From Blautia sp. (lineage in GTDB: Bacteria > Bacillota > Clostridia > Lachnospirales > Lachnospiraceae), in the NCBI GenBank assembly GCA_022769545.1, contig JALEJS010000040.1, positions 1-64,000 on the forward strand: a stretch of 64,000 nucleotides of DNA, written 5' to 3'. Position 1 is the first letter of the stretch, and every line of letters starts with the position of its first letter. Made by a program: the position numbers and the translations under genes. Shown here one piece after another: positions 6,410-23,649 of the stretch. Below the pieces are notes generated by a model. It was not told the DNA's origin, searched no databases, and saw only the letters and a list, made by a program, of their open reading frames with translations.

Positions 6410-6417
6410 ATATAGCC

Positions 6418-7650
6418 TCAATCCAGCAGCGCCACTGCCACATCGTTTACATTGGTTCCCGTCGGACCTGTCACGATCAGTCCATCCGACGCTTTCAGCG
6501 CTGTGTATGCATCATTGTTCTGCAAAACCGAAAATACATCCAGCTGCTTTTCTCTGAGCGCCTCCATCGTCTCACCGTCCACATAGCCTCCGGCTGCATC
6601 CGTAGGGCCATCGGTACCGTCACTGCCCACCGAAAATACACAGGCATTCCGGATTCCGGCAATGCCAGGTGCTGCCGCCAGCGCAAGTTCCTGATTCCGT
6701 CCGCCCTTTCCCTTTCCGGTAAGGTGGACTACCGTCTCTCCGCCTGCGATATAGCACAGCCTGCGGCCTTCTTTTGCATGCGTACGCAGAACGCTTGCCA
6801 GCATACTGCCCGCCTCTCTCGCCTCACAGCACAGCTCATCGGTAAGAAGAACCGGTTCATATCCCAGTCCGGACGCAGCTTTCATCGCCGCCTCACAGAG
6901 CTCACGTACACTTCCCGTAATCCGTGTGGTAACATTGGTAAGACACTTCGGTGTCTCCTGCTTCAGAAGCTCCTGTGCCCGCTTTGACAGCTTCAGATCA
7001 TACTTTTTCAGAATATCCTCTGCCTGTGCACAGGTGGAAGAGTCCGGATAAGCCGGTCCCGATGCGATCATATCCAGCGGATCTCCCAGGATATCACTGA
7101 GCACAATGGCATAAACCTGTGCCGGCATGCACGCCTGGGCAAACCGTCCTCCTTTGACTGCAGAAAGACGCTTACGAATGGTATTCATCTCCACAATATC
7201 CGCCCCGCAGGCGAGAAGCTGTCTGGTAATATCCTGCAGCTCTTCTCCCGGGATCAGCGGATCCTCAAACAGTGCACTTCCGCCTCCGGAAAGCAGGAAT
7301 ATCACCGTATCCTGTTCCGCAAGTCCACGCACTTTTTCCAGTGCTTTTCTGGTTGCCGCAAAGCTGTTCTCATCAGGAACAGGATGACCGGCTTCCAGAC
7401 ATTCCACTCCGGGGATCTCCCCTTTTACATGTTCATATTTGGTAATGACAATTCCGTCATCCACATGTCCGAGGACACGCACTGCCGCAGCTGCCATCTG
7501 CCAGGCAGCCTTGCCGGCCGCCACCAGAACGGTGCGGCCGCCGGCCCCGTGATAATCCTTCAGCGCTTTTTCCACGGCATTGTCCGGCATCACTGCTGCC
7601 AGAGCCTCCCGGATGATCTGATCTGCTTTCTGTCTCAATAACTGATTCAT
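6418..7650 (-). CDS. Glycerate 2-kinase (MOFRL/DUF4147 type)
   Basis: A 410-residue enzyme of the glycerate kinase group that makes 2-phosphoglycerate from D-glycerate and ATP in the cytoplasm. N-terminal VAAGKAAWQMA and FLLSGGGSALFEDP, the NTIRKRLSAVKGGRFA lysine-rich segment, VLSDILGDPLD, and the C-terminal GGRNQELAL and SVGSDGTDGPTDAAGG motifs are all characteristic. Length is normal for the family. The gene starts one base after the stop of the hydroxyacid dehydrogenase gene, so the two are surely cotranscribed. The pairing supports the step hydroxypyruvate to glycerate to 2-phosphoglycerate, although related enzymes can act on tartronate-semialdehyde-derived glycerate. Confidence 0.9.
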   Translation of the reverse strand: MNQLLRQKADQIIREALAAVMPDNAVEKALKDYHGAGGRTVLVAAGKAAWQMAAAAVRVLGHVDDGIVITKYEHVKGEIPGVECLEAGHPVPDENSFAATRKALEKVRGLAEQDTVIFLLSGGGSALFEDPLIPGEELQDITRQLLACGADIVEMNTIRKRLSAVKGGRFAQACMPAQVYAIVLSDILGDPLDMIASGPAYPDSSTCAQAEDILKKYDLKLSKRAQELLKQETPKCLTNVTTRITGSVRELCEAAMKAASGLGYEPVLLTDELCCEAREAGSMLASVLRTHAKEGRRLCYIAGGETVVHLTGKGKGGRNQELALAAAPGIAGIRNACVFSVGSDGTDGPTDAAGGYVDGETMEALREKQLDVFSVLQNNDAYTALKASDGLIVTGPTGTNVNDVAVALLD

Positions 7651-7651
7651 C

Positions 7652-8617
7652 TTATTTATTCACCACGTTTGCAGGACTTCCGTCCACAAAGGATTTTACA
7701 TTGTCAACAGTGATATCCATAATTCTCTGTCTTGCTGCCTGTGCCGCCCAGGAAATGTGCGGGGTGATCAGGCAGTTTTTCGCTTTCAGAAGCGGGTTGT
7801 CACCCTTGATCGGCTCTGTGGATACAACGTCCAGACCAGCCGCATAAACCTTTCCGCTGTTCAGGGCATCTGCCAGATCCTGCTCTACCACAAGCTGTCC
7901 GCGGCTGTTGTTGATCAGAATCACGCCGTCCTTCATCTTTGCGATATTATCCTTGTTGATAATACCCTCTGTGGACGGGAACAGCGGGCAGTGAAGGAAG
8001 ATCACGTCAGACTGTGCAAGAAGTGTGTCCAGATCCACATATTCTGCCAGCTGTCTTCCAGCCTCAGACTCAAATGCGTCGAAGGCAAGAACCTTCATAT
8101 TCATCGCGTTCAGAATTTTCGCTGTGGACTGTCCGATTCTTCCAAGTCCGATGATACCGGCGGTTTTTCCGTACAGCTCGATCATCGGGAAGTCCCAGAA
8201 GCACCAGTCATCGTTGTTCTCCCAGCGTCCTTCCTTGACAGCCATATCATGGTGTGCAAAATGGGAGCAGATTTCCAGAAGAAGTCCCACTGCATACTGA
8301 CCCACGATCTGTGTTCCGTAGGTCGGAACATTCATTACCGGGATTCCTTTTTCCTTTGCATACTGGTAGTCAACCACATTGTAGCCGGTAGCCAGCACTG
8401 CGATTGCCTTAATATTGGGGCATGCATCCAGCGTCTCTTTTGTTATGGGTGTTTTGTTTGTGATCACCACATCTGCATCACCGATTTTTTCGCGGATCAC
8501 CGGTGCGTCCACATAGGAAACACGGTCATATACAGTCAGTTCTCCAAGTTTCGCAAGCTCATCCCAGGAAAGATCTCCGGGGTTCTCTGTGTATCCATCC
8601 AGAACTACAATCTTCAT
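7652..8617 (-). CDS. D-2-hydroxyacid dehydrogenase (hydroxypyruvate reductase-like)
   Basis: A 321-residue NAD(P)-dependent D-2-hydroxyacid dehydrogenase. The Rossmann motif GLGRIGQS lies near residue 150. Conserved NNSRGQLVVEQDL carries the substrate arginine, and TPHISWAA carries the catalytic histidine. Start choice: ATG 8617 (MKIVVLDGY) with AAAGGG upstream; the frame runs open further 5' into gdhA but without family similarity. Being sandwiched between gdhA and glycerate kinase makes hydroxypyruvate or glyoxylate the likely substrate; D-lactate cannot be excluded from sequence alone. Confidence 0.88.
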   Translation of the reverse strand: MKIVVLDGYTENPGDLSWDELAKLGELTVYDRVSYVDAPVIREKIGDADVVITNKTPITKETLDACPNIKAIAVLATGYNVVDYQYAKEKGIPVMNVPTYGTQIVGQYAVGLLLEICSHFAHHDMAVKEGRWENNDDWCFWDFPMIELYGKTAGIIGLGRIGQSTAKILNAMNMKVLAFDAFESEAGRQLAEYVDLDTLLAQSDVIFLHCPLFPSTEGIINKDNIAKMKDGVILINNSRGQLVVEQDLADALNSGKVYAAGLDVVSTEPIKGDNPLLKAKNCLITPHISWAAQAARQRIMDITVDNVKSFVDGSPANVVNK

Positions 8618-8636
8618 ACGTTTATCCCTTTCTTTT

Positions 8637-9986
8637 TTAGAATACGCCCTGCTGAAGCATTGCATCCGCAACACGTTCAAAGCCGGCAATGTTTGCTCCT
8701 GCAACTAAATTATAACCTAAACCGTTCCGTTTTGCAGCATCAACTGAATTTTTGTAAATCGTATTCATAATATTGTGCAGCTGTGTATCAACTTCTTCCT
8801 CCGACCATACAAGACGCTCGCTGTTCTGGCTCATTTCCAGAGCAGATGTAGCCACACCGCCGGCATTGACTGCCTTGGACGGAGCAACGATAATGTCTTC
8901 CTGATCCATCAGGAAACGAAGTGCATCGTTTGTGGTCGGCATATTTGCCACCTCAATATAATAACGGATATGATTTGCTGCAATCTTCTTTGCTTCTTCC
9001 ATATGTACGTCATTCTGCATTGCAGACGGCATACAGATATCTACTTTTACGCCCCACGGTTTTTCTCCCGAGAAGAATTCCACACCAAATTTGTCTGCAT
9101 AGTCCTGCACTTTGTTTCTTCCGGAATTTCTCATGGTCACCAGATATTCGATCTTCTCCGGTGTGTTTACGCCATCCGGATCGTATACATATCCGTCCGG
9201 TCCGGAAAGTGTCACAACCTTTGCGCCAAGCTCGGTTGCTTTCTTGCAGATTCCCCAGGTAACATTTCCGAAACCTGCGCAGGCAATGGTCTTGCCCTTG
9301 ATGTCCTGTCCGTCATCGCGAAGAACATTTTCCAGATAATATACCGCACCGTATCCGGTAGCTTCCGGACGGATCAGGCTTCCGCCGTAGGAGAATCCCT
9401 TTCCTGTGAGTACACCGTTTTCGAAGTTGCCTTTCAGTCTTCTGTACTCACCGAACAGATATCCAATCTCTCTTCCGCCGCAGCCCATGTCACCTGCCGG
9501 AACGTCCACGTCCGGTCCGATGTAGCGATACAGTGCCTGCATATAACTCTGACAGAAGCGCATGATCTCGTCATCACTCTTTCCGGACGGATCGAAGTCG
9601 GAACCACCTTTACCGCCGCCGATGGGAAGCCCGGTCAGGCTGTTTTTAAAGGTCTGCTCAAATCCAAGGAATTTCATGATGCTGGGTGTTACATTTGGCT
9701 GGAAACGAAGGCCGCCCTTGTACGGTCCGATGGCGCCGTTGAACTGGCAGCGGTATCCGGTATTGGTGTGCCACTGTCCGTTGTCATCCTGCCATACCAC
9801 GCGGAATGTGTACATTCTCTCCGGCTCTACCATACGATTTAAAAGATCTACTTTTTCATATTCCGGATGTCTTTCCACAACCGGCTCCAGAGAAGAAAGT
9901 ACTTCCTCTACCGTCTGGCAGAATTCCGGCTGTTCCGGATATTTTGCCTTAACACCTTCAATTACTCTGTTGATATATGCATTCAT
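8637..9986 (-). CDS. gdhA: Glutamate dehydrogenase
   Basis: A 449-residue cytosolic hexameric-type glutamate dehydrogenase interconverting 2-oxoglutarate plus ammonium and glutamate. PYKGGLRF and the lysine motif GLPIGGGKGGSDFDP are the substrate and catalytic signatures. PAGDMGCGGREIG follows, and GFGNVTWG is the dinucleotide-binding loop. ATG 9986 with TAGGAGGAAAG upstream is preferred to the ORF extension that begins 33 bases earlier. It sits 55 bases after the aminotransferase gene and 19 bases before the hydroxyacid dehydrogenase, and could regenerate the amino-group acceptor or donor for the transaminase. Coenzyme preference is not clear from sequence. Confidence 0.97.
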   Translation of the reverse strand: MNAYINRVIEGVKAKYPEQPEFCQTVEEVLSSLEPVVERHPEYEKVDLLNRMVEPERMYTFRVVWQDDNGQWHTNTGYRCQFNGAIGPYKGGLRFQPNVTPSIMKFLGFEQTFKNSLTGLPIGGGKGGSDFDPSGKSDDEIMRFCQSYMQALYRYIGPDVDVPAGDMGCGGREIGYLFGEYRRLKGNFENGVLTGKGFSYGGSLIRPEATGYGAVYYLENVLRDDGQDIKGKTIACAGFGNVTWGICKKATELGAKVVTLSGPDGYVYDPDGVNTPEKIEYLVTMRNSGRNKVQDYADKFGVEFFSGEKPWGVKVDICMPSAMQNDVHMEEAKKIAANHIRYYIEVANMPTTNDALRFLMDQEDIIVAPSKAVNAGGVATSALEMSQNSERLVWSEEEVDTQLHNIMNTIYKNSVDAAKRNGLGYNLVAGANIAGFERVADAMLQQGVF

Positions 9987-10019
9987 TGTCTCTTTCCTCC
10001 TAAAGCAATCCTCATCCAT

Positions 10020-10041
10020 TTTGCTTTTTGCTTTTTGCTTT
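10020..10041. repeat. Short tandem repeat of TTTTTGC
   Basis: Three to four copies of a 7-base TTTTTGC unit lie in the gap between the aminotransferase stop and gdhA. Such a tract can vary by slippage. I see no further function. Confidence 0.6.
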
Positions 10042-11220
10042 TTATTTTGTTCTCAGTTCTTCAAATGCTTTTGCCATTCTGTCCATAGCTTCCACAATAC
10101 GCTCATAGCTGCATGCGTAGGAAAGACGGATATATCCTTCTCCCTCTGTTCCGAACGCAGAACCCGGAACGGTTGCAACTTTTGCATGATCCAGAAGATA
10201 ATCTGCAACCTGTGCCGATGTCATACCCAGGGATTTCACATTTACGAAAATGTAGAACGCGCCTTCCGGAACCTTGCAGCTGATGCCTTCCATGGCATTC
10301 AGTGCTTCTACGGCATAATTTCTTCTCTTTTCGTATTCCTTCACCATCATCTGTACATCCGGCTCAGCCTCACGAAGTGCTGTCACACCTGCGTCCTGAA
10401 CGAAGGAAGCTGCACAGGTATTGATGTACTGGTGTACACGTACCAGGCCCTGGATCATCTCCACAGGAGCGGCACAGTAACCAAGTCTCCAGCCCGTCAT
10501 GGAGTAGCATTTGGAAAATCCGTTGAGAGTGATGGTTCTTTCTTTCATTCCCGGAAGAGATGCGATGCTGACATGCTTCGTTCCTCCGTAAACCAGTTTT
10601 TCATAAATCTCGTCTGCCACTACGATCAGATCATATTTTTTTGCGATATCTGCCAGTTTTTCCAGTGTCTCACGGCTCTGTACAGTACCTGTGGGATTTC
10701 CCGGTGTGTTGATAACCATCATTTTGGTTTTATCTGTGATCTTGCTCTCGATCTCTTCCATGTTGATCTGGTAGTTGTTCTCTTCTTTCAGAGAGTAGGT
10801 AACCGGAACAACACCAAAGAAATTCGGCACATGGATGTAGTTCAGCCATACCGGATTGGGAACCAGAACTTCATCTCCCGGATTCAGGAATGCTGCCATA
10901 GATGCATAAGTTCCTTCACCTACACCGATGGTAACCAGAATTTCCTCCGGCTTGTATTCCACACCGTTTTCCTTGGTCAGCTTCTCTGCGATGGCTGCGC
11001 GAAGCTCCGGTGTTCCATAGTTGGATGTATAGAAAACATGGCCCTTCTCCAGGCTGTCATATGCTGCTTTTTTGATAACCTCCGGGGTGTCAAAATCGGG
11101 ACGGCCGATTTCCATATGGATGACATCCTGTCCCTCTTTCTGCATTTTGTTTGCACGTTCCATCATGACACGGATTCCGGAAAAAGGAAGTGCTTCCATT
11201 CTTTCTGCTGTATTAAACAT
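10042..11220 (-). CDS. PLP-dependent class I/II aminotransferase
   Basis: A 392-residue fold-type I aminotransferase. VINTPGNPTG and VVADEIYEKL are the conserved substrate-side and pyridine-nitrogen motifs, and LNGFSKCYSMTGWRLGY contains the Schiff-base lysine in SKxxxxxGWRLG. Length and motifs match the aspartate/aromatic/PatA-like aminotransferases; the amino donor cannot be assigned from sequence. It is the first gene of the operon with gdhA, hydroxyacid dehydrogenase and glycerate kinase, so a serine:pyruvate or serine:glyoxylate-type activity giving hydroxypyruvate is an attractive inference, with alanine or aspartate transamination as alternatives. GGAGAGGAG precedes the ATG. Confidence 0.92.
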   Translation of the reverse strand: MFNTAERMEALPFSGIRVMMERANKMQKEGQDVIHMEIGRPDFDTPEVIKKAAYDSLEKGHVFYTSNYGTPELRAAIAEKLTKENGVEYKPEEILVTIGVGEGTYASMAAFLNPGDEVLVPNPVWLNYIHVPNFFGVVPVTYSLKEENNYQINMEEIESKITDKTKMMVINTPGNPTGTVQSRETLEKLADIAKKYDLIVVADEIYEKLVYGGTKHVSIASLPGMKERTITLNGFSKCYSMTGWRLGYCAAPVEMIQGLVRVHQYINTCAASFVQDAGVTALREAEPDVQMMVKEYEKRRNYAVEALNAMEGISCKVPEGAFYIFVNVKSLGMTSAQVADYLLDHAKVATVPGSAFGTEGEGYIRLSYACSYERIVEAMDRMAKAFEELRTK

Positions 11221-11303
11221 ATCTGTTATCTCCTCTCCTTGATGTGTACTGGTTCATTGTCAGTAAGTTTATTTCCAGGGCTCTCTTCCCTGTTTCTGAC
11301 CTC

Positions 11304-11332
11304 ATTATATGCCCTGTTAATAATAAAGTAAA
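11304..11332 (-). promoter_or_regulatory. Promoter of the aminotransferase-gdhA-glycerate operon
   Basis: On the minus strand TTTACT (11332-11327), a 17-base spacer and TATAAT (11309-11304) lie 84 bases upstream of the start codon. AT-rich sequence with a GAATTAATTC palindrome (around 11335-11344) borders the -35 side and may be an upstream element or operator. A small CAGGG/CCCTG hairpin can form in the leader. Confidence 0.7.
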
Positions 11333-11364
11333 ATGAATTAATTCTATTTAAATCATTTACTATT

Positions 11365-12465
11365 TTAATAATTATGGGTGAGCCGGTTTTTCTGCTCCAG
11401 TCCCATACAGGAGGAAATATGGGACGCAAAATCAGAAGTTATTTTGTGGATTTCCCGGATCTCCATAATGCTTCCCGGAGTATTCGCCGTCTCCATCAGC
11501 GCAAAATCTCCGGGCAGGATAAAGGATTTATTCATATTCAGCCCGTCGATCAGCTGTCTGGCCAGAATGTCCCCTCCGCTGTACCCGGACACAATCAGCG
11601 CAAACAGACATTTGTCGGCAAACGGTTTTTTGCGGAACAGCGCTGTCAGCCGGTTGATAAAAGCGGTCAGATTTGCCCCCAGGGCATCGTTGTAATTGGG
11701 GCACAGAAGGATCAGCCCGTCACACACCTCCAGAGCCGGATATACTTCCTCTACCATAGGGCCGCCATAAAAGCAGCTGGAATTCCGGCTGAAATACATA
11801 CACATATCATATGGGCAGCCTGCACAGTCCGATACCGTTCCATTCCGGAGAGAAATTTCCCGGACAGTGATCCGGTCCGACAGCTTTCCCTTTATTTCCT
11901 TCCAGAGCTGCAGTGTGTTGGAGGTTTCCGGGTTGCAGGAATGAACGCATAACAGACGGGCCTGTTTTTTCTTCGGCCGCTCAAAAGAAAGGATACGTTC
12001 CGCAAGATCTCTGGCCGACCAGAGATACGCTTCATAAAGACTACATTTCTGATTGGACGCTATGACTTTGTAATTCTGGAGACTCCCGGTTCCTTCTGTG
12101 AGCGGACGGCCCACAAACCAGCAGCCGGCCTGATTGGCAGCCTGTACCACTTCCCGCCCCACTGCCTTCGTGTAGTATTCTCCACTGCCATCTACCAGAA
12201 TCCCGGCCACGCTGCCTCTGAGGCACCCCGGATGCATCCGCAGAATCTCCATCATGGTATACAGCTTCAGGTTAATCCCGGAGCTTCCCAGTGCTGCAGC
12301 AAACAAAATTCTTTTATTCTGCAGTTCTCCCCGGGAAGCCATCTGTTCCAGCATCTCCGGCTCCCGGATCTGCATTGCGGGAATCGTTCCGTTCAACGCA
12401 TATTCAACTACTGCTTCCAGCCGTTTTTCTTCTTTATACTTCGGCCAGATCAGAATCCATTCCAT
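11365..12465 (-). CDS. Two-part flavodoxin-like NAD(P)H-dependent oxidoreductase
   Basis: A 366-residue protein. The C-terminal half (about 170-350) resembles NADPH-dependent FMN reductase/iron-sulfur flavoproteins: VHSCNPETSNTLQL looks like an FMN phosphate-binding loop, CAGCPYDMC is a compact cysteine cluster at about 220, and LLCPNYNDALGANLTAFINR resembles the conserved flavodoxin-like loop. The N-terminal 160 residues (with AAALGSSGINLKLYTM and AGILVDGSGEYYTKAVGRE) recall a second Rossmann-like alpha/beta domain that I cannot name; it resembles the NAD-binding half of shikimate-dehydrogenase-like proteins. GGAGG precedes the ATG, which lies inside the end of the upstream dehydrogenase-like gene (16-base overlap). 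Reaction and partner are unknown. Confidence 0.7.
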   Translation of the reverse strand: MEWILIWPKYKEEKRLEAVVEYALNGTIPAMQIREPEMLEQMASRGELQNKRILFAAALGSSGINLKLYTMMEILRMHPGCLRGSVAGILVDGSGEYYTKAVGREVVQAANQAGCWFVGRPLTEGTGSLQNYKVIASNQKCSLYEAYLWSARDLAERILSFERPKKKQARLLCVHSCNPETSNTLQLWKEIKGKLSDRITVREISLRNGTVSDCAGCPYDMCMYFSRNSSCFYGGPMVEEVYPALEVCDGLILLCPNYNDALGANLTAFINRLTALFRKKPFADKCLFALIVSGYSGGDILARQLIDGLNMNKSFILPGDFALMETANTPGSIMEIREIHKITSDFASHISSCMGLEQKNRLTHNY

Positions 12466-13472
12466 AATATTTCCTCCAGTCCGCGGTATGACCTTTCCAG
12501 CCTGTCAAAAAGGGCTTCCGGAAGGGGCACTTCCTCCCACTGAACTCCCTGCGGGGTCTGCCGGTTCAGAGCCCCAAAATAAAGACCGTTCAGATAAGCC
12601 GCGCTGTAATTCCATTCCCCCTTCAGCATTGCCAGAAGTGTCAGAACTGCCGAGGAGATCGCCGGTGCCAGGAAGGGCTTAAACCCAAGCCGGCGCACCT
12701 CCAGATTGGCCTTTACCGTCATTTCCGTCAGAGCACGGGAAGCATTGTCATCATAGTGGGCCGGATCTGTACTGTTGGCAATGACAAGATCCTTCCCATG
12801 AGGCCCGAAGGCTCTCCCCTCCGTGAGATACAGAGAAAACTCCGGGTGTCTTTTCGCATAGTAAGCAGCACGGGCGTTCATCACACCCAGGCCGCAGCCC
12901 CGGATCTGATCCGGTGTCAGGCGGCGGCCCTCCCCCTGTTCCTCCTCTGCCGACGAACGAAGCGCTTCCATACAGAGAAGGTCCACCGGATCCGATACCA
13001 CCACAAACAGTCCCCGGTATCCCACCCGAGCCGCCTGGCGTGCATAGAGGGCAACAATTTTCCTGTTTGCCTCATACTGCGCCATGCGCACATCCTTCAC
13101 ATCACTGTCCAGGGCAGGTACACTTTTCGTGGCACAGAACAAAAACACATCACAGTCAAACATTTCCTCCCAGGAAACGGCAGATACCTCAGGAATCCGT
13201 CTGCCTCCCGGAGGCGGAGCGATCTGAGACAGCTCCGTCTCCATCCGTTTACACTGTTCCGGGCTCAGATCATATAGTCCGATTTTTTCAATCAGTTCCT
13301 CTCCCAGAAGCACAAGCCCCAGGGCCACATTCCGTCCCACATCCCCCAGACCGGCCAGATGGACCCGTTTTCTGTCTCCACTTTCTGTCTGCATCCACAC
13401 CGGCTTCGTCTGTTCCAGACAATCATATTTTCTGTGCGCTTCTGCACATCCGAGTTCCAAAATTGTCTTCAT
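12450..13472 (-). CDS. Lactate/malate dehydrogenase-like NAD-binding protein
   Basis: A 340-residue Rossmann protein. VHLAGLGDVGRNVALGL near residue 37 is the dinucleotide loop. The acidic IGLYDLSPEQ after beta2, CDVFLFCATKSVPA, VVVSDPVDLLCMEAL and GRAFGPHGKDLVIAN (catalytic-His position) follow the order of LDH/MDH-superfamily proteins. It is diverged from both lactate and malate dehydrogenases and lacks the usual substrate-loop arginine pattern that I can recognise, so I do not assign the substrate. ATG 13472 has AAGGGGGA upstream and lies 13 bases after the giant gene, while its 3' end overlaps the flavoprotein gene; the three genes look like one transcript. Confidence 0.72.
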   Translation of the reverse strand: MKTILELGCAEAHRKYDCLEQTKPVWMQTESGDRKRVHLAGLGDVGRNVALGLVLLGEELIEKIGLYDLSPEQCKRMETELSQIAPPPGGRRIPEVSAVSWEEMFDCDVFLFCATKSVPALDSDVKDVRMAQYEANRKIVALYARQAARVGYRGLFVVVSDPVDLLCMEALRSSAEEEQGEGRRLTPDQIRGCGLGVMNARAAYYAKRHPEFSLYLTEGRAFGPHGKDLVIANSTDPAHYDDNASRALTEMTVKANLEVRRLGFKPFLAPAISSAVLTLLAMLKGEWNYSAAYLNGLYFGALNRQTPQGVQWEEVPLPEALFDRLERSYRGLEEILWNGF

Positions 13473-13485
13473 ATATCTGTCCCCC

Positions 13486-16400
13486 TTATTCTCTGTTATT
13501 TTTCGCGCCAACCGCTCCAGTCAGTCGGCGAAGACGGCAAAGTTTTTCCAGTTCTTCCTCCAGAATCCGGGACGGCGCCTGCTGCAGTTTTTCCCGGGTC
13601 AGTCCTATGCCGTCCGGATATCTGGGTTCCGCTGTCACCTCGCCGATCCGATCCATCGTCAGCTGTCTTCCATACCGACGGCGGTATTCTTTTTCCAGCA
13701 CCCGGCAGATATCACGGGCATTTTCCAGGCAAACCTGCGACAGCTGGTAAAGAGCACCCAGAGATGCATCCTCCAGAAATGCCGGTATCTCATACGGCAG
13801 AATGGTATTTACCGAAGGAATTGCCATCAGCATATCGGACGCTTTTGTTCTGCTGCGCACTCCGTCTCCTCCCAGGAAGGGATACAGATCCGACTCGATC
13901 AGCCAGGAGGACAGGTTTGGCACATTATAAACCGCTTTGATTTTCTGTCCGTTTACCCGTGCCAGGTCCCTTCCTCTTCCGGAGATGACTCCCACGATCA
14001 GCTCCGCATCTTCGATTCCCTCATCCTGCAGGTGTCTGGATATTTCCTTCATCCGGTAGCCACTGTGATACAGATCGTCCACCAGAAGTACCGGTCTGCG
14101 AAACGAGCGTACCGTCCGGATCTGAACCGGAAGGGAAGCATATCCCGGGAAGCTGGAAATAGTAAAGGAAGAAAGATCCTTCTCATATACCTTCTCCGTA
14201 TCCAGGCCTTTGGTAACCGTGTTGGGAATCCGTACCCCTTTCAGAATCTTGCCAAAAGGAACACACATTTTTTCTCCTTTCCCCCCGGATTCCTCCTGCT
14301 CCATGGAAACTCCGTTTTCTTTCGTGATAAGGCGGATCAGCCGATAATTCATCACCTCGGATGCAAAACACAGGATCAGCCGGCCCGGATAAAGGTTTGT
14401 CAGTGCTTCCAGAAGGCGGATGTGGCACTTTCTTATGACAAATCTCACCGCCTCGCTGTCTGCCATGGGCTCCTTGACGGAGGAATGCGTATCATAAAAG
14501 ATCACCAGCGGATGACGCAGATCCAGAAGATACATGTTTTCCAGCCCGCGAACCGGAAGAAAACCGTGCAGCTTCAGCGCTTCCCGATTCTCTCCTTCAT
14601 CCACACAAAGCGCAAAAGAATAGCTGTTTTCCTGGAAATATTCCAGCACCTCATTGAGAACCGTCAGTCTTCCGTCATCCGAAGCGCTGACCTCCCCCTG
14701 GATCTTTGTAATCATCGCCGTTCTGCCGGAGATGAGACTTCGAAGCAGTTCCGCCTGCTCAATACTTCCGCATTCCTGCATTAACTCAGATGGGTCCACA
14801 TCATGGAATTCCACACTGGAAAAAACCGTCTCTGTATTGGACAGTGTCATTCTCCGGTTCTCCCCTTCTCCTGTCGAAAATTCTGCATCAACAGGAAAAT
14901 ATCTGGCGGTTTTCTTGTAAACCGGCTCCATGGTATATAATCCCAGATGATAAATATAATTCTGTACACCGTCATCCACCAGTCCCAGAATATCTCTTCC
15001 TGCATTGATATTTTCCCGAATCCTTGTGGAACTCACCGTCTCCAGAAGGGGCGGCAGCTTCATAAATCGTCTTTCTCCCAGGATGCGTTCCCGGCAGATT
15101 CTGATTTCTTCGTCCTTCTCTTCCCCGTTTTCCTGTGCATTTCTGGAAAAAATGATATGCGGGAACTGATGCACGGAATATTCTTCAGGAACTTTTTTGT
15201 ACGCTGATGCATTCTGAACCACATCGCTGCCCACCACAATATAGATCGAACGATCCTTCAGCATACCGGACAGCTTTTTCATATCTTTCGGATTTGCAAT
15301 GTTTACAGGAATCTCCTCCGGAAACAGATAGACCTCTTCCATATCTGCAGTTGACATGGAAAGAATTTTTCTTCGCACTTCAAAAGGCTGCGGTTTTTTG
15401 GACCAGGAAAATTCATCCAGTGCCAGATAAACCCGAAAGCCCATTTCTCTGATTTTCTCCACAATCTGCTTATGACCCAGAGAGAAGGGATCAAAGGTCC
15501 CCGGGAAAAAGGCTGTGGGAAGTTTCTTCTCTTCAAAAGGAAGCGTTCCCTTTGTGGTAAGGTAATCATTGATAAATCGATAAATCCGGTTCAGGGCTGC
15601 ACCGTTAAAATATACATACAGTCCCAGACGCTCCCAGTTGAGAAGAGTCAGTATTTTTCTTGCAAGGCCGGAAAAATTCTTCTGCTTTTCATCCAGCGTC
15701 AGACTGCGGTTTCCAAATAATTCATAGCCGGTAATATAAAACGCCTCCTGAGCGATCTCGTCCCGATAATCTGCCATACCGATGCACAGAATCCCCTCTG
15801 CCTGAGAACGCTCCTTCTCCGACAATTTTCCCGAACAATTGTGAAGAATCTTTCCGGCCGTTTCCAGTGCCGCGATTACCGTCCTGGTATGTACTCCGCT
15901 GCAGAGCCTGCGAAGCTGACAAAGAACGTATTCCCGTTCTCCCTCATGAAGCAGTGCAAACATTTTGCCCAGGCAGGGCGGAATATATTTGGAAACAGCA
16001 TATTCTTCGATTTCCAGTGCCCGGATCAGCTCCAGGACGATCTCATGGCTTTGTGTCTCCGTAAGAAAGGGCAGAATTGCCAGCAGATTGTCCCCTGCCT
16101 GGAGACGGTTGACGATCTGACCGGAAAACTGCAGCATATGCAGCAAATGCGAGGCATACTGATATAATTCCTCCGGGCTGTCCTCCACGCCCTGTCTTTT
16201 TTTCAGAATTTCCAGATTCATGAATTTGTAAATCCAGGGAACCTCCGAACGCTGATTTTCCATATACAGATTGGTCATATCATAATAAATCATGCCCTGT
16301 TCGCTGGGAATATGATAGAATTCCCGGATTCTGGCTGCCAGATACTGTACACTGTAAGGTCTCTGCTTCATACCCGGAATGCTTTCCGTAATCAGATCAG

Positions 16401-18090
16401 ACACATTCCGGTCCGGCTTCCATCCCTGACGCATCCAAAGCAGAATAAAACGAAGGGCAGCCACCTGACTTTCTTCCCCGCATTCTCCTGTGACCAGCGC
16501 ATAAGCAAATTCTGCCAGCGTTTTCACCTGACTTTCGCTGCACTGTTCATATCGGATCTCCGCGCAGCAGTCCATCAGAAAAAACATGGTAAGATTGTCA
16601 CAGCCCGTGTGACACTGCCGGATATAGGCATCCAGGACACCACTCTGTTTCCCCTGATCCAGCTTTTTCAGCAGCGTATGCAGCACCCGTTTCATGGCAA
16701 AGCCCGCATAACGGCGCTCCCGCTCCGCCGCATGCACCTCCGGATATACCAGTCGTTCCAGAAAGCTCTGGAAAACTTCTTCCAGAGTTCCTCCCACCCT
16801 CGGCGCCTGATAGCCGCTGGGAATTTCCTTCGCAAAATTGATTTCATAACCGGCCATAAGGATTCCCGCAATCTCCGCAGCCTGCCGGCGGATATCGCCG
16901 TCCTTATGGGACAGCATGTCAAAAAGGAATTCCAGAATCACCTGTTTCTGATTCTGCGGTAGATACGCAGAATATTCCTCAATAGCGGTGAGGTAAGCCC
17001 GCACATGGCGCCAGTCTCGTTCGGACCGGATGTTCTCCAGAAGACTGATAAACTGTTCCTCCCGGATGGTTGTGCTCATGATGGCAAGATTTGACCGGAT
17101 GGCAAGATTTTTAAACCGGCAGACAAGCTCCTCTTTGCTCATCAGAGAAGCATAATTCTCTTTTGCCGGCTCGCCCGCTCCGGATACCAGATCCACCGAA
17201 CATCCCAGCGCAATCATGTAATCCTCAAAATCCTTCAGCTTCGCATATACTCTGGCATAACGCTGCTTCTTCGCCTCATCCACGTTGTCCAGTTTTCCCA
17301 GAATCACTTCATAGGCGTCATCCAGACTCCAGAAACGGATATGCTCTTTTTTGTTTTCATCATAAATGCTCTTCACACGGAAATCGGCATAAATCAGAAG
17401 AAGACTTTCTGCAGACAGATTTTCCAGCTCCAGATCCCATACGGAATGGTTGGAGGCAATGTCTCCGATGGCCTCCAGGTGATTGCTGCGGCAATATTGG
17501 AAGGTGTAATAATAGTGAAGGTACGGGACCCTTCTTCCCTCCTGGGGACGGCATCCGTACTTTCCGATGTCATGCATCAGTGCCGCACCGGACATCAGAC
17601 CAAGGTCCACCGGAACCCCTTTTTTTGCCAGCTGTCTTGCCATATACATGGATACATGATGGACTCCGGCAATATGTCCCAGCGTGTTGTAAGGTGTACA
17701 TACCTGAGAAAGACGCATAAAGGCATAGACTCCCCCCGCACCGAAGCATTCCAGAAAACGTCTGTATTCCGGTAGAATACTGCAGTATTTTTCTTCTTCT
17801 TTTTTCAGAAGGGCAAAATTCCGACAGGGGTCAAAAGGCCGTTCTGCCGCTTCCCGCTCAAACAGGGCGGTCAGGATTTCCATATAATATGAAACCGCCT
17901 GCTGCGCACCCCGGATTTTTTTCACGGTATAATTTTCCGGAAAGTATTCTGCCAGAAGATAGTGGAATACATAGTCAAGCCATCCCTCTTCCGGTATTTT
18001 TTCACACATCTGTTCCATGTACGGCCGGCACAGTTCCAGCACCTGCCTCAGGTTTACGCCTTCTTCCGGCATTTCATATTCCGTAATCAT
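13486..18090 (-). CDS. Giant HD / helical-repeat / NadD-like / phosphoribosyltransferase-like fusion protein
   Basis: About 1534 residues with no signal peptide. An HD phosphohydrolase-like domain comes first: H139 and H144-H145 in HIAGVHHVSMYMA, then MHDIGK at H173-D174. A long Leu-rich helical region (about 300-850) resembles HEAT-type repeats. Near 860, FFPGTFDPFSLGH is a nucleotidyltransferase HxGH-type motif, and near 1020 VSSTRIREN matches the ISSTxxR motif of NadD/CoaD-type adenylyltransferases. After a possible GNAT-like stretch (about 1080-1230), a type I phosphoribosyltransferase-like PRPP motif VLLVDDLYHSGYR lies near 1335. Start choice: ATG 18090 (GAGGG 8 bases upstream); ATG 18105 and 18120 are alternatives. 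It heads an operon with a dehydrogenase-like and a flavoprotein-like gene. NAD-type cofactor or nucleotide-signal metabolism is an inference; I do not know the function. Confidence 0.75.
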   Translation of the reverse strand: MITEYEMPEEGVNLRQVLELCRPYMEQMCEKIPEEGWLDYVFHYLLAEYFPENYTVKKIRGAQQAVSYYMEILTALFEREAAERPFDPCRNFALLKKEEEKYCSILPEYRRFLECFGAGGVYAFMRLSQVCTPYNTLGHIAGVHHVSMYMARQLAKKGVPVDLGLMSGAALMHDIGKYGCRPQEGRRVPYLHYYYTFQYCRSNHLEAIGDIASNHSVWDLELENLSAESLLLIYADFRVKSIYDENKKEHIRFWSLDDAYEVILGKLDNVDEAKKQRYARVYAKLKDFEDYMIALGCSVDLVSGAGEPAKENYASLMSKEELVCRFKNLAIRSNLAIMSTTIREEQFISLLENIRSERDWRHVRAYLTAIEEYSAYLPQNQKQVILEFLFDMLSHKDGDIRRQAAEIAGILMAGYEINFAKEIPSGYQAPRVGGTLEEVFQSFLERLVYPEVHAAERERRYAGFAMKRVLHTLLKKLDQGKQSGVLDAYIRQCHTGCDNLTMFFLMDCCAEIRYEQCSESQVKTLAEFAYALVTGECGEESQVAALRFILLWMRQGWKPDRNVSDLITESIPGMKQRPYSVQYLAARIREFYHIPSEQGMIYYDMTNLYMENQRSEVPWIYKFMNLEILKKRQGVEDSPEELYQYASHLLHMLQFSGQIVNRLQAGDNLLAILPFLTETQSHEIVLELIRALEIEEYAVSKYIPPCLGKMFALLHEGEREYVLCQLRRLCSGVHTRTVIAALETAGKILHNCSGKLSEKERSQAEGILCIGMADYRDEIAQEAFYITGYELFGNRSLTLDEKQKNFSGLARKILTLLNWERLGLYVYFNGAALNRIYRFINDYLTTKGTLPFEEKKLPTAFFPGTFDPFSLGHKQIVEKIREMGFRVYLALDEFSWSKKPQPFEVRRKILSMSTADMEEVYLFPEEIPVNIANPKDMKKLSGMLKDRSIYIVVGSDVVQNASAYKKVPEEYSVHQFPHIIFSRNAQENGEEKDEEIRICRERILGERRFMKLPPLLETVSSTRIRENINAGRDILGLVDDGVQNYIYHLGLYTMEPVYKKTARYFPVDAEFSTGEGENRRMTLSNTETVFSSVEFHDVDPSELMQECGSIEQAELLRSLISGRTAMITKIQGEVSASDDGRLTVLNEVLEYFQENSYSFALCVDEGENREALKLHGFLPVRGLENMYLLDLRHPLVIFYDTHSSVKEPMADSEAVRFVIRKCHIRLLEALTNLYPGRLILCFASEVMNYRLIRLITKENGVSMEQEESGGKGEKMCVPFGKILKGVRIPNTVTKGLDTEKVYEKDLSSFTISSFPGYASLPVQIRTVRSFRRPVLLVDDLYHSGYRMKEISRHLQDEGIEDAELIVGVISGRGRDLARVNGQKIKAVYNVPNLSSWLIESDLYPFLGGDGVRSRTKASDMLMAIPSVNTILPYEIPAFLEDASLGALYQLSQVCLENARDICRVLEKEYRRRYGRQLTMDRIGEVTAEPRYPDGIGLTREKLQQAPSRILEEELEKLCRLRRLTGAVGAKNNRE

Positions 18091-18138
18091 TTTTGGGTCC
18101 CTCATAACTCTTTTCCTCATTTCCTTTTTTCTTCTGCA

Positions 18139-18199
18139 GGTGTCAGAATTCTGCACAGGAAGCTGTGCCGGACCGTTTTCTGCACAGGATTCTGACACC
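18139..18199. repeat. Structured leader: nested inverted and direct repeats
   Basis: GGTGTCAGAAT (18139-18149) pairs perfectly with ATTCTGACACC (18189-18199). Inside, CACAG/CTGTG can form a second stem, and TTCTGCACAGGA occurs twice as a direct repeat. It lies just upstream of the giant gene and could fold in its mRNA. Confidence 0.6.
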
Positions 18200-18210
18200 C
18201 GGATCATGCA

Positions 18211-18240
18211 GAAAAAGGAATGCCATTTCCGGCATTCCTT
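18211..18240 (-). terminator. Intrinsic terminator after the symporter gene
   Basis: On the minus strand AAGGAATGCC, a six-base loop and GGCATTCCTT form a perfect 10-bp stem running into T residues. It ends the pxp-symporter transcript. If the putative TATGAT promoter near 18255 is real, it would instead sit in the leader of the giant gene. Confidence 0.85.
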
Positions 18241-18303
18241 CTTCTGTAAGGTATCATACTGCAGTTTCCGGGTTTGTCCGAAAATCAGATTTTCCGTATT
18301 CCT

Positions 18304-19653
18304 TTAAGAATTATATACGTCTTTATCCAGCTGTCCTTCCGATGCGTTTACGATCACGTTAACTGCTGCGTCGCCGATAACGTTCAGAGGCAGAAGAGAC
18401 ATCTCAACCGGTCTGTTGATTGCAACTACCAGAGCATAGCCCAGGAGGCAAAGATCAGATGTCCAGCCCATACCGGAAAGAACGGTAAAGATCATGGTTG
18501 TTCCGGCGATCGGAATAGCCGGTGTTCCGGCAGCGGCACAGATGGAAAGAAGTGCCATTACGATCATGTTTGCCGGTGTGACATTGATGCCAGCTGCGGT
18601 TGCAATAAAGGTTACCGCAAACATATGCATCATGGTAGTACCATTCATGTTGATGGTCATACCGGTCGGCAGTACAAAGCTTGTGATTTCCTGAGAACAT
18701 CCCAGCTCATTCAGACAGGTTTTTGTGTTCAGCGGAAGTGTTGCTGCGGAGGAGTTTACAGAGAATCCGAAAACGCCAACCTTAGCCATCTTCTTCAGGA
18801 ACTTGGACGGGTTCAGTCCGGTTGTAACAAAAATACCAATCGGGTAAAGTACACAGCAGGTAATCAGCAGTGTAGCCATGGCTGCAACAATGTAAGCAGC
18901 CGCCGGTTTCAGATATTCTGCTCCGTAGATTGCGAAGGTTCTGGATACCAGACAGAAGATTGCCACCGGTCCGATCTTGTTGATCAGGAAGTTCAGATAC
19001 ATCTGGATGATTTCGTTGGCACTTTCAAATACCTTCTTCAGTGCTGCTGCCTTTTCTCCCAGAGCGTTCATACAGATACCGATGACAACTGCGGTAAATA
19101 CAACTGCCAGGATACTGTTGTTTGTGCTGAACGCGGAAGTAATGTTATTGGGCACTGCATTGACAATTACTGCAAGAGGGTTAAATGCATCAATGGTGCT
19201 TGCTTCACTGAGGCCATCTGCCACAAGTGTTACATTAAACAGTCCGACAGACTTGATAATGTAGGCAACGGCACAGGCAATTGCTGCACCAACTGCATAG
19301 AATGCAAAGAATCCGGCAAGTGTTTTTCCTGCAATTCTTCCAAGCTTTGTAGAATTGGAAATGCTGCAGAGTGCCAGGCTTAAGGATACCAGTACCAGCG
19401 GAACGATGGCAGCCTGAAGACCTTTCATAAACAACTGACCAATAATATAGAAGATACCGATTGCTTTTACGCCATCTGCGCTTGTAATATCCTGGAACAG
19501 AATGTTATTGATGGTTTTCCAGGTCGCTTCGCCGCCGTTATTTAACAGATTCTGGCGAATCATCATAAAGATCAGACCGACAACAATACCACCAACCAGA
19601 GCTGCAATCATTTTCTGGGCGATCGGTCTTTCCTGTTTTTTCGTTTTTCCCAT
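18304..19653 (-). CDS. Dicarboxylate/amino acid:cation symporter (DAACS family)
   Basis: A 449-residue integral membrane protein of the GltP/SstT/DctA family that moves acidic or small neutral amino acids or dicarboxylates with Na+ or H+. There are about eight hydrophobic segments. VNSSAATLPLN is the serine-rich re-entrant loop motif, and TGMTINMNGTTM is the variant of the NMDGT cation-binding motif (Asp replaced by Asn in NMNGT). The C-terminal NRPVEMSLLPLNVIGDA is also diagnostic. It lies 45 bases after pxpA in the same direction and ends at a terminator, so 5-oxoproline, glutamate or a related substrate is plausible for this operon. Confidence 0.92.
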   Translation of the reverse strand: MGKTKKQERPIAQKMIAALVGGIVVGLIFMMIRQNLLNNGGEATWKTINNILFQDITSADGVKAIGIFYIIGQLFMKGLQAAIVPLVLVSLSLALCSISNSTKLGRIAGKTLAGFFAFYAVGAAIACAVAYIIKSVGLFNVTLVADGLSEASTIDAFNPLAVIVNAVPNNITSAFSTNNSILAVVFTAVVIGICMNALGEKAAALKKVFESANEIIQMYLNFLINKIGPVAIFCLVSRTFAIYGAEYLKPAAAYIVAAMATLLITCCVLYPIGIFVTTGLNPSKFLKKMAKVGVFGFSVNSSAATLPLNTKTCLNELGCSQEITSFVLPTGMTINMNGTTMMHMFAVTFIATAAGINVTPANMIVMALLSICAAAGTPAIPIAGTTMIFTVLSGMGWTSDLCLLGYALVVAINRPVEMSLLPLNVIGDAAVNVIVNASEGQLDKDVYNS

Positions 19654-19698
19654 TTTCCCTCTCCTGTTATGTAGTTTTTTTAAGGCTCCCGGAAACGC

Positions 19699-20457
19699 TT
19701 ATCGAAAAGCCCTGATTTCAATTCCCTCTTTTTTGAAGGCTTCCGAAATTTTCTGAACAAAGGCAATTGCCTTTGGTCCGTCTCCGTGTACACAAAGAGT
19801 ATCCCCTTTGATATCCAGTTCCTTTCCGCTGTATCCGGTAACCTTTCCTTCCTTGATCATGCGAATGCACCGTTTGATTGCTTCATCCTCATCCGTGATC
19901 ATGGAACCTTCCAGTTTCCTTCCTCTCAGAGAAAGGTCGTCCTCATATGCACGGTCTGCGAAAATTTCACATGCAGTGCGAAGTCCGATCTTCTCAGCCT
20001 CTTCTCCGAGAACTGCGCCTGCGCAATAATACATAATGATGTCCGGATCAATTTCATAACATGCCTCACAGATAGCCCTTGCCAGCTGTCTGTCATTCTG
20101 GCACATATTTCCCATCGCTCCATGGGGTGCCACATGATGAATTTTGATTCCGTAGCTGGTGGTGAATGCAGAAAGCGCACCGATCTGATATTTCACATAG
20201 TTCTTGGCTTCCTCAAAAGAAAGATACATTTTTCTTCTTCCGAATCCCAGAAGATCCGGATAGCTGGGATGCGCTCCCACTACAACGCCTCTTTCCGCAG
20301 CCATTTTTACAACCCGTTCCATAACCATGGGATCGCCTGCGTGCCAACCGCATGCCACATTCGCTGCGGTAACATATTTTAAGATTTCCGCATCATCACC
20401 AAGCTTATATGCGCCGAAGCTCTCGCCAATGTCGCTGTTCAGATCTACTGAATACAT
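19699..20457 (-). CDS. pxpA: 5-oxoprolinase subunit A (LamB/YcsF family)
   Basis: A 252-residue member of the LamB/YcsF family, which with PxpB and PxpC hydrolyses 5-oxo-L-proline to glutamate using ATP. The start DLNSDIGESFG, then NVACGWHAGDP and GAHPSYPD, GALSAFTTSYG, and the C-terminal DTLCVHGDGPKA are the family signatures. Length is usual. AAGGAGG precedes the ATG. It follows pxpC after a 120-base gap that can form a CATCTGTA/TACAGATG hairpin. Confidence 0.96.
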   Translation of the reverse strand: MYSVDLNSDIGESFGAYKLGDDAEILKYVTAANVACGWHAGDPMVMERVVKMAAERGVVVGAHPSYPDLLGFGRRKMYLSFEEAKNYVKYQIGALSAFTTSYGIKIHHVAPHGAMGNMCQNDRQLARAICEACYEIDPDIIMYYCAGAVLGEEAEKIGLRTACEIFADRAYEDDLSLRGRKLEGSMITDEDEAIKRCIRMIKEGKVTGYSGKELDIKGDTLCVHGDGPKAIAFVQKISEAFKKEGIEIRAFR

Positions 20458-20577
20458 ACCCTTTTCCTCCTTGTGTCACTGTTGGTCTTTTAAATTTTTT
20501 ACTGTTCGGTACCGATGTATATTGCATCTGTACAGGAATCCTGCGCGTCCGCAGTAAGTATACAGATGTAACCAGAA

Positions 20578-21528
20578 TTAACTGTTCAGGGACTGCTCCA
20601 GAGCTTTCATCTCTTCAAGCTCCCTGATGTACAACATATGTGCCAGCTCCATGCTGACGTGAATGAAACGGACCCTCATGCCCGGCTTCGCCTGTGCAAT
20701 CTTGGGAAGATCCGCTGTAATGACGGTTCCTATTTTTGTATAGCCGCCTACCGTCTGTCTGTCAGCCATCATGATGAAGGGCTGCCCTGTGGTAGGTACC
20801 TGGATAGAACCAAAAGCGATTCCGTCACTGATGATATTTCCGTCTTTGATGTGTTTGATCGGAACTTCGCGCTCCAGTCTGCACCCCTGACGGTCAAACT
20901 CATTGGTCACTTTGGAACTGTACCAGAAAAATTTTCTCTGTTCTTCTTCGGAGAAAGCATCCTCCTGGGGGCCCAACACCACTCTCAGAGACACCTCATC
21001 CGTAGGATATACCGGAATGGGATAATGTCTTTTTTCCATTGCCGGAAGCTCTGCCTTTGGTGCTGTGAATCCAATACGGTCACCTTTTTTCAGGGCTCTT
21101 CCTTCGAAGCCGCCCAGCTTTTTCGCTGCAAGAGTGGACTTGGATTCCATCACCAGCGGAATGTCCAGACCGCCTGCAAAGGCGATGTATCCACGGCATC
21201 CGCCGCCTGCTGCAAATCCAAACCGAAGCACATCTCCTGCGTGAACTGCGACTGCCGCATACCGGGGAATCGGCTTTCCGTTTACGGACGGCTGCATATC
21301 ACCTCCTGTGACTGCGATCACATTGTCCTGATCAAATTCAAGATCCGGACCTTTAAATGTAATCTCAAGCGCCCCTTCTCCCTGTGGATTTCCCACAAGA
21401 ATATTTGCAATATGAAAAGCTCTGGCATCCATCGGTCCCGACGGAGTAACGCCATACTGCTGATATCCAAATCTACCCTCGTCCTGTACGGTTGTAAGCG
21501 GACCAGGATCTTTTACAAGAATTCCCAT
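20578..21528 (-). CDS. pxpC: 5-oxoprolinase subunit C (KipA, carboxyltransferase family)
   Basis: A 316-residue biotin-dependent carboxyltransferase-like protein, subunit C of the ATP-dependent 5-oxoprolinase. The sequence starts with DPGPLTTVQDEGRFGYQ. VTGGDMQPSVNG, AAGGGCRGYIAFAGGLD and MADRQTVGGYTKIG are the family motifs. No biotin-attachment site is expected or seen. GGAGG lies ahead of the ATG, and the gene follows pxpB by 50 bases. Confidence 0.95.
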   Translation of the reverse strand: MGILVKDPGPLTTVQDEGRFGYQQYGVTPSGPMDARAFHIANILVGNPQGEGALEITFKGPDLEFDQDNVIAVTGGDMQPSVNGKPIPRYAAVAVHAGDVLRFGFAAGGGCRGYIAFAGGLDIPLVMESKSTLAAKKLGGFEGRALKKGDRIGFTAPKAELPAMEKRHYPIPVYPTDEVSLRVVLGPQEDAFSEEEQRKFFWYSSKVTNEFDRQGCRLEREVPIKHIKDGNIISDGIAFGSIQVPTTGQPFIMMADRQTVGGYTKIGTVITADLPKIAQAKPGMRVRFIHVSMELAHMLYIRELEEMKALEQSLNS

Positions 21529-21578
21529 ATCTGACCTCCATGCCTTATCTGAATGATTTCTGTCTCAAATGATTTCGA

Positions 21579-22301
21579 TTACTCTTCTACGTGAACCTTA
21601 ACCTGATAGGTACCGGCTTCATCCGCCCGGCGGATAGCGTCATATTCTTTCTGACTGACCGGAACATAGCGGACCCATTCTCCCGCATGTACCAGGAACG
21701 GATCTTCTTTTTTATAATCACAAATGGTCAAAGGTGTGGAACCGATGATATTCCAGCCACAGGGCTGTTCAAAAGGAATCAGATCCGACAGATTCAACTG
21801 TACCACAACAGATCTCTCCGGAATTTTCACTCTGGCAGTATCTCTTCTCTTGAAGGAGAAAGGTTCTTCAAATCTGGCAGAATAGGGATGTCCGGGTGCA
21901 AATCCCAGCATATACACATAATAATCATGAGAAGAATGCTTCCGGATGATTTCTTCCACAGTGGTATTCTCCAGCTGTGCACAGAGCTCCAGATCCGGTC
22001 CTGTTTCTCCGCCATAGAGGATGGGAACCTCACGGACGATTTTTTTCGTGCCTGCGATATCTTTCATATTGTCCACACGCTGATATATTTCATCCTTCAG
22101 CTGTTCCAGACTGATCACATCCGGACGATAGTGAATCATCAGTGATGCATAGGTGGGAACCATTTCACGAATCCCGTTCACAGGCTTATTCTTTAATTCT
22201 TCATGCAGCATAAGAACCTTCCGGTTTACCTCAAGGCTGATTTCATCCCCCATCTGAACGGAAACCGCCTGATCTCCGGACATTAAAATTTTTACATCCA
22301 T
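21579..22301 (-). CDS. pxpB: 5-oxoprolinase subunit B (KipI family)
   Basis: A 240-residue KipI/AHS1-family protein, subunit B of 5-oxoprolinase. GDQAVSVQMGDEISLEVN at the N-terminus, the MVPTYASLMIHY segment, LGFAPGHPYSARF and the C-terminal IGSTPLTICDYKKEDPFL are diagnostic. It is the first gene of the pxpB-pxpC-pxpA-symporter operon. Members of the family were first described as KinA inhibitors in Bacillus, but the presence of all three subunits supports the metabolic role here. Confidence 0.95.
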   Translation of the reverse strand: MDVKILMSGDQAVSVQMGDEISLEVNRKVLMLHEELKNKPVNGIREMVPTYASLMIHYRPDVISLEQLKDEIYQRVDNMKDIAGTKKIVREVPILYGGETGPDLELCAQLENTTVEEIIRKHSSHDYYVYMLGFAPGHPYSARFEEPFSFKRRDTARVKIPERSVVVQLNLSDLIPFEQPCGWNIIGSTPLTICDYKKEDPFLVHAGEWVRYVPVSQKEYDAIRRADEAGTYQVKVHVEE

Positions 22302-22399
22302 CCTTCTTTTTTACCTCCGGTCAATAAACAAAATTTCACAAAAACTTTACCGGCACTTCATGTTTGCCTGATGATTTTTACGTACTTTTTTCTAAACAA

Positions 22400-22440
22400 A
22401 ATATACCATAATCTTTAAATAAATAAAAATAAATTATTTG
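22400..22440 (-). promoter_or_regulatory. Probable activator-dependent promoter of the pxp operon
   Basis: On the minus strand a TATATT box (22405-22400) has only a weak TTTTAT at the -35 position. The region upstream (to about 22440) is AT-rich with an imperfect AAATAA...TTATTT dyad, resembling the motif ahead of the RraA-like gene. A LysR-type activator site is inferred. The stretch 22450-22490 is almost purely A and T. Confidence 0.4.
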
Positions 22441-22511
22441 TTCATCTTTTATAAACATAATTTATATATATTATATATAATTATATATAAGCAAAAAAGG
22501 GGATGCATTTT

Positions 22512-23444: not shown

Positions 23445-23568
23445 AATTCCCTCCGTTCGTTATTTCTATGTATCTGTCCGGGTCTTCTCCCGGCCTGTCT
23501 GCCTCGTCATGGTGCTGCTTTTTGGTGTATTATATCCTTTTTTTCAATAATAAACAACATTAATTTTA

Positions 23569-23615: not shown

Positions 23616-23649
23616 GATACCAGAAAACAAAAACACGGAGGTAAAAGAC

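Follow-up and report, generated by a model that had tools for sequence, protein, structure and literature searches.

A conserved gene trio around a giant HD, HEAT and NadD-fold protein in anaerobic Clostridia and Atribacterota: a candidate adenine-dinucleotide system

The DNA analysed here (the window) comprises the first 64,000 nucleotides of contig JALEJS010000040.1 of Blautia sp. (assembly GCA_022769545.1; 2.96 Mb in 50 contigs), and concerns us for three consecutive minus-strand open reading frames (ORFs) in its ORF list. The first encodes a 1534-residue protein (the big protein; 13486..18090, counted from ATG 18090), the second a lactate/malate dehydrogenase (LDH/MDH)-like NAD-binding protein whose catalytic Asp has become Met (12450..13511), and the third an FMN_red flavoprotein with four invariant Cys (FLD; 11365..12465), the two partners being assigned from ORF, Pfam and alignment. 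The initial annotation had proposed a three-gene operon of big, LDH/MDH-like and flavodoxin-like proteins, and both the ORFs and Pfam confirm it. With longest-ORF starts the big and LDH-like genes overlap by 26 nt and the LDH-like and FLD genes by 16 nt, while the first ATG of the LDH-like frame, at 13472, lies 13 nt past the big stop; the stop/start overlaps suggest that one transcript carries the trio. The first ATG of the big frame is at 18207 (13486-18207, minus strand, 1573 aa), and residue numbers below follow this longer frame. An intrinsic-terminator-like hairpin with a T-run (18212..18240, minus strand, -15.9 kcal/mol), located between a gltP-like ORF and the big gene, ends 4 nt before ATG 18207, which makes ATG 18120, 18105 or 18090 the likelier start of the gene. 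This hairpin could be a terminator or an attenuator; it is not in the list of a consensus terminator scan, which found 7 against 8.7 expected. Two promoter-like sites lie upstream of it, from a consensus scan whose yield (14 against 9.6 expected) is near chance, and a further site (11332-11304) ahead of the downstream aminotransferase is weak given the same figures.

The trio forms a single functional unit. Among 200 genomes of the family, the big, LDH-like and FLD genes were each found in 7, the same 7 genomes in every case (own genome included) and on one contig each. In a second set of 76 loci, gathered from a named genome collection by a scan with short peptide seeds rather than as a census, all three genes stand in order and on the same strand in 62, with a gap between the big and LDH-like ORFs of at most ~67 nt in 51 of these 62 complete loci (longest-ORF starts). 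The second set is not wholly independent of the first, as at least one genome of the first (G169) seems to be the same species as a locus of the second (L095). Eleven of the 14 incomplete loci end at a contig end, leaving three real exceptions: L025 and L061 have the LDH-like gene and no FLD within >1.1 kb after it, and L077 has neither partner. Adjacency in other genomes, a check proposed with the initial annotation, therefore holds. Pairwise distance correlations among the trio (r 0.757, 0.775 and 0.690; 59 sequences) exceed the maxima of 500 permutations (0.121, 0.102 and 0.166), although correlations of this kind can arise from shared ancestry alone. Occurrence in exactly the same genomes of 200, in nearly fixed order and in both Bacillota and Atribacterota, makes the trio a defined biochemical unit.

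The distribution of this unit is patchy. The big protein is present in 7/200 family, 8/398 phylum and 7/60 same-genus genomes, the own genome being part of each count, and identity among the same-genus homologues runs from 80 down to ~40%. Carriers are gut and sediment bacteria of the Bacillota and Atribacterota, with Oscillibacter, Anaerovorax, Peptoclostridium litorale, Soehngenia, Fervidicella and Atribacterota metagenome-assembled genomes among those named; many named carriers ferment amino acids, and the named host genera are anaerobes. Patchiness of this kind would suit an anti-phage or other conflict system, but none of the three proteins has a PADLOC match at E<=0.001 and the neighbouring genes inspected belong to metabolism or housekeeping, making such a role very improbable. 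Split or stand-alone versions of the big protein were also considered and rejected: in the 398 phylum genomes a profile of the C-terminal half gave 10 matches against 8 for the single protein, and the two extra matches, frames of 203 and 218 aa that correspond to the NMNAT part only, are probably housekeeping NadD.

From its N-terminus the big protein, all of it read from the minus strand, begins with an HD domain (residues 141-345, 17173..17787), assigned from its ligands and Pfam, followed by a HEAT-type alpha solenoid (residues ~370-885, 15553..17100), assigned from Pfam matches in homologues and from fold lists, and by a NadD/NMNAT-fold adenylyltransferase domain (residues 893-1098, 14914..15531), assigned from a fold list and profile comparison. 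Next comes a degenerate, weakly GNAT-like stretch (residues 1099-1250, 14458..14913), to which strand/helix order and a single Pfam match point, and finally a phosphoribosyltransferase (PRTase)-like stretch with an altered phosphoribosyl pyrophosphate (PRPP) loop (residues 1251-1460, 13828..14457), recognised by alignment and by Pfam in part of the homologues. Pfam places CTP_transf_like in the window protein above cut-off (E 1.1e-8), with HD (E 0.006) and Pribosyltran (E 0.06) both below it; at E<=0.1, the 54 homologues searched give CTP_transf_like in 54, HD in 32, HEAT in 25, Pribosyltran in 22 and GNAT in 1. Fold searches made with the two halves of the big protein gave lists filled by NadD and by HEAT proteins, and a PDB sequence search with residues 1285-1573 returned no match at E<=10. 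The order HD, HEAT-like, NadD-like, PRTase-like read in the initial annotation is thus confirmed, its PRTase leg being weak and the GNAT-like stretch having gone unnamed.

Residue conservation was followed in an alignment of 72 big-protein rows, window included, and bears out the earlier expectation that the catalytic residues of the HD and NMNAT parts are kept across homologues. Columns conserved at >=97% make up 25% of the HD and 21% of the NMNAT part, compared with 13% of the PRTase-like, 5% of the HEAT and 4% of the GNAT-like part. In the HD domain H178, H212, D213, H231, H254 and D275 are all invariant (72/72), giving the dinuclear H...HD...H...H...D motif as described in PMC8177086, and R277 and K216 are likewise 72/72. 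The adjacent His pair of the HD-GYP motif (H...HD...H...HH...D in the same source) is absent from the big protein, in which H254 is followed by S255 (Ser 72/72). In the NMNAT part P902, G903, D906, P907, F908, H912, D931, F933-K937, G993, D995, V996, Y1003, H1017, S1059, S1060 and R1064 are all 72/72. NadD and NMNAT enzymes carry an HxGH motif with both His and an SSTxIR-type motif; the latter is present, with T1061 in 63/72 and I1063 in 70/72 beside the invariant S1059, S1060 and R1064. Residues 931-937 read DEFSWSK, E932 being found in 71/72 and all other positions in 72/72. This almost invariant stretch, a possible substrate signature from its conservation, and the setting inside a 1534-aa chain distinguish the domain from NadD and human NMNAT. 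The PRPP motif of type I PRTases has an acidic pair and a T/S-G-x-T/S phosphate loop, the loop normally gripping PRPP, and in the PRTase-like part the acidic pair is found (D1377 72/72, D1378 71/72), together with P1328, K1333, G1383, R1385 and G1406 (all 72/72).

The two partners also have recognisable folds. Ldh_1_N is found in the window LDH-like protein below cut-off (E 1.2e-5), and the LDH-like profile gives a 276-column alignment to lactate dehydrogenases at an hhalign probability of 98.3 (against a reference set of four sequences, two of them near-identical), supporting an LDH/MDH fold. As in L-lactate and malate dehydrogenases, the equivalents of His195 and Arg171 (LDH numbering) are invariant in 66 of 66 rows (65 of the 71 loci proteins, those >=260 aa, plus the window), and probably that of Arg109 is too. 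FLD has an FMN_red domain above cut-off (E 6.7e-18) and, in 60 rows (59 of the 62 loci proteins plus the window), four invariant Cys, C214, C217, C222 and C231, as well as a CPNYND stretch. It resembles NADPH-dependent FMN reductases and iron-sulfur flavoproteins in its domain and its four Cys, but differs in their spacing (CX2CX4CX8C) and in an extra N-terminal half that has no Pfam match. A tandem flavodoxin was considered for this N-terminal half and is unsupported (hhalign probability 0.7 against its own C-terminal half); a PDB sequence search with FLD gave no match at E<=0.01.

The NMNAT part is closest to NadD: the family profile scores 38.8 bits against NadD, 12.7 against CoaD, and 2.6 and 1.4 against TmcAL-like and RibF-like ORFs (the last two labelled from sequence). 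Canonical nadD and yqeK ORFs adjoin elsewhere in the source genome, yqeK being confirmed by TIGR00488; since this separate pair is present, the big protein is not the housekeeping NAD enzyme. A YqeK-type HD domain, which its six ligands and the presence of nadD next to yqeK had made likely, was rejected, with YqeK ranking only 12th of the 17 HD proteins of the genome (18 matches minus the big protein itself) at 3.7 bits against 10.8 for the best, a large membrane HD protein, although all scores are low and the exclusion is not firm; hhalign of the HD part with 16 YqeK sequences is weak (probability 14, E 0.0019, 36 columns). These data bear on the doubtful alternative that the trio serves NAD quality control or salvage, with the NMNAT domain making nicotinic acid adenine dinucleotide (NaAD) or NAD, the HD domain destroying mis-made or damaged forms, and the LDH-like and flavin proteins repairing NAD(P)H. 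The closeness to NadD would fit, as would the invariant Y1003, an aromatic residue located close to where NadD and NMNAT enzymes stack the base, and a proofreading HD-NadD pairing is known (PMC9426524). Against it stand the nadD-yqeK pair, seen in the own genome, the low-scoring HD profile with no preference for YqeK, and the patchy distribution, odd for general repair.

The precedent just cited is the mycoplasma NadD-YqeK fusion (JCVISYN3A_0380), whose HD domain cleaves NaAD and its pyrimidine analogues as proofreading (PMC9426524). The big protein likewise unites in a single chain an adenylyltransferase of NadD type and an HD hydrolase with the dinuclear motif. It could therefore both make and break a pyridine dinucleotide, and by this analogy we infer that making and breaking an adenine dinucleotide is its likeliest chemistry. 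Because a nadD-yqeK pair exists separately, the partners are of redox type and the distribution is patchy, we consider an accessory dinucleotide more likely than a role in maintaining NAD. Our preferred reading, to which we give a probability of about one in three, is that the big protein synthesises and hydrolyses an adenine dinucleotide and has redox partners of its own, the trio working as one unit. The big protein would be a scaffolded bifunctional enzyme: its NMNAT-fold domain would join AMP, taken from ATP, to a mononucleotide to give an NAD-like adenine dinucleotide, and its dinuclear HD domain would cleave that dinucleotide or incorrect forms of it. The HEAT solenoid may hold these parts, and probably the two partners, together, and the PRTase-like end could bind a ribose-phosphate compound that would be a substrate or an effector. 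The LDH-fold protein would bind NAD or the new dinucleotide, and FLD, as a putative Fe-S flavoprotein, would pass electrons to or from the LDH-fold protein or the dinucleotide, which in anaerobes may be an accessory cofactor or a signal. In this scheme the unit, the NMNAT and HEAT folds and the conserved residues are observations; all of the reactions, the formation of a complex, the presence of an Fe-S cluster and what the dinucleotide does are proposals. More tentative than this reading is its extension to a separate pathway for an adenine dinucleotide not recognised so far, serving anaerobic Clostridia and Atribacterota as cofactor or signal, in which one giant protein would make and destroy the compound, and an LDH-fold protein of non-standard chemistry and an Fe-S flavoprotein would use it. 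If such a dinucleotide is made, anaerobic metabolism, that of gut bacteria included, would gain a further cofactor or signal.

Several observations weigh against the preferred reading. Fold-search support covers the NMNAT and HEAT parts, and phosphodiesterase, oxygenase or PRTase folds may occur in the others (HD, GNAT-like and PRTase-like). In the big protein the HD domain comes first and a solenoid of ~500 residues precedes the NMNAT domain, whereas in the mycoplasma fusion the HD domain appears from its His230 to come second. The first His of HxGH, as read in the initial annotation, is Ser in 65 and Thr in 7 rows, never His (n=72), although the second His is 72/72. The PRPP-type motif keeps its acidic pair and G1383, but the first Thr/Ser position of the loop is Lys in 56, Ser in 15 (the window among these) and Asn in 1, and the second is Arg in 72/72, so that T/S-G-x-T/S is absent; together with Pribosyltran in 22 of 54 homologues, this leaves the PRTase leg of a pathway weak. 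In one case, moreover, the PRTase-like end can persist apart from the rest: the homologue at L077 (9992-13837) lacks the HD domain as well as LDH and FLD and overlaps a PPDK_N gene, and its NMNAT part has changed at P902S, D931H, G993S, V996T, S1059T and R1064Q, while 16 of 16 examined PRTase-like positions keep the family residues. This suggests that the HD domain, NMNAT activity and two partners were lost together, and that the PRTase-like end serves some purpose independently of them. LDH/MDH catalysis relies on an Asp168-His195 relay; the Asp168 equivalent is Met in 66/66, breaking this relay, and that of Asn140 is Asp in 66/66. Both changes depart from L-lactate and malate dehydrogenases, and because the catalytic Asp is Met throughout, ordinary dehydrogenase chemistry is doubtful for this partner.

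A last such point concerns the HD site. According to PMC8177086, every HD phosphatase carries an Arg some three residues ahead of the first His, yet this position in the big protein is Thr in 66, Val in 2, Ser in 2, Met in 1 and Asn in 1 of the 72 rows, never Arg, and any Arg within the six preceding residues occurs in 6/72. The missing Arg keeps alive an improbable alternative, in which the HD domain, instead of acting as a phosphohydrolase, would carry a diiron redox centre that is fed from the Fe-S flavoprotein. The H...HD...H...H...D motif is common to HD oxygenases, and a YxxE within 25 residues before the first His (residues ~159-162 in relatives), found in 48/72, recalls the YxxE loop of the oxygenases PhnZ and TmpB (PMC8177086); a four-Cys flavoprotein also accompanies the big protein. 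The YxxE, however, may be a chance match; it is not in the window protein and lies farther from the His than in PhnZ. The invariant R277 and K216 could hold phosphate. Known HD oxygenases use O2 (PMC8177086), whereas the named host genera are anaerobes.

For an adenine-dinucleotide enzyme, then, the initial annotation's nucleotide or dinucleotide pathway with its own removal step survives in reduced form: the conserved HD and NMNAT residues and the three genes together make a make-and-remove pair on one chain reasonable, with the PRTase leg weak and the LDH Asp replaced. Beyond domain order, the big protein differs from NadD-YqeK in its GNAT-like and PRTase-like ends and two partner genes, and while it shares the dinuclear HD motif, its HD profile shows no preference for YqeK in a comparison where all scores are low. 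An HD hydrolase that precedes a nucleotide synthase in the same polypeptide has a parallel in RelA/SpoT-type synthase-hydrolases. This is meant as an analogy; an NMNAT fold takes the place of the Rel synthase, and the size differs. Among the open-licence PMC papers returned by literature searches, no title or abstract opening describes the trio, in line with the earlier remark that no characterised system has this set, and the part of PMC9503650 consulted says nothing on it. Because the first His of HxGH and the HD Arg are missing, a separate nadD-yqeK pair is present and no description was found, the module appears to represent a novel type of system assembled from familiar folds.

Residue changes in the LDH-like protein, the PRPP loop and HxGH also keep alive the rather unlikely alternative that some sites are non-catalytic and that the trio is a sensor or regulator, responding to NAD(H), ribose-phosphates or redox state and controlling amino-acid or 2-oxoacid fermentation. 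In its favour, several loci have glutamate dehydrogenase, aminotransferase, serine dehydratase or malic enzyme as neighbours, but flanking genes differ between loci, and the HD and NMNAT domains are the most conserved parts, pointing to catalysis. Riboswitch control was rejected, with no Rfam match in window 7000-24000, and three Rfam matches at six of the 76 loci, the ones searched, all lie on the strand opposite the big gene.

In the window the trio sits in a same-strand row (7652-22301, minus) with 5-oxoprolinase subunits, gltP (both labelled from sequence), an aminotransferase, glutamate dehydrogenase and a 2-hydroxyacid dehydrogenase; members of the aminotransferase and/or glutamate dehydrogenase families are also found close to the trio in some relatives. 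At L070, L073 and L082 a serine dehydratase alpha-chain ORF upstream overlaps the big ORF by 4-17 nt (longest-ORF starts), with a beta-chain ORF just ahead of it (Pfam on one member per cluster). A PPDK_N/ATP-grasp-type neighbour (874 aa, 3797-6421, minus strand; PPDK_N seen by Pfam in its L077 homologue) was considered as a fourth member and rejected: it is in 45/200 family genomes, and among the 7 big-gene carriers only in G000. Speaking against this rejection, a family member is found in 7/76 loci, overlapping the big ORF in L077. A second copy of this family in the own genome (L096) lies in a cluster with a transglutaminase-like protein, as read from sequence.

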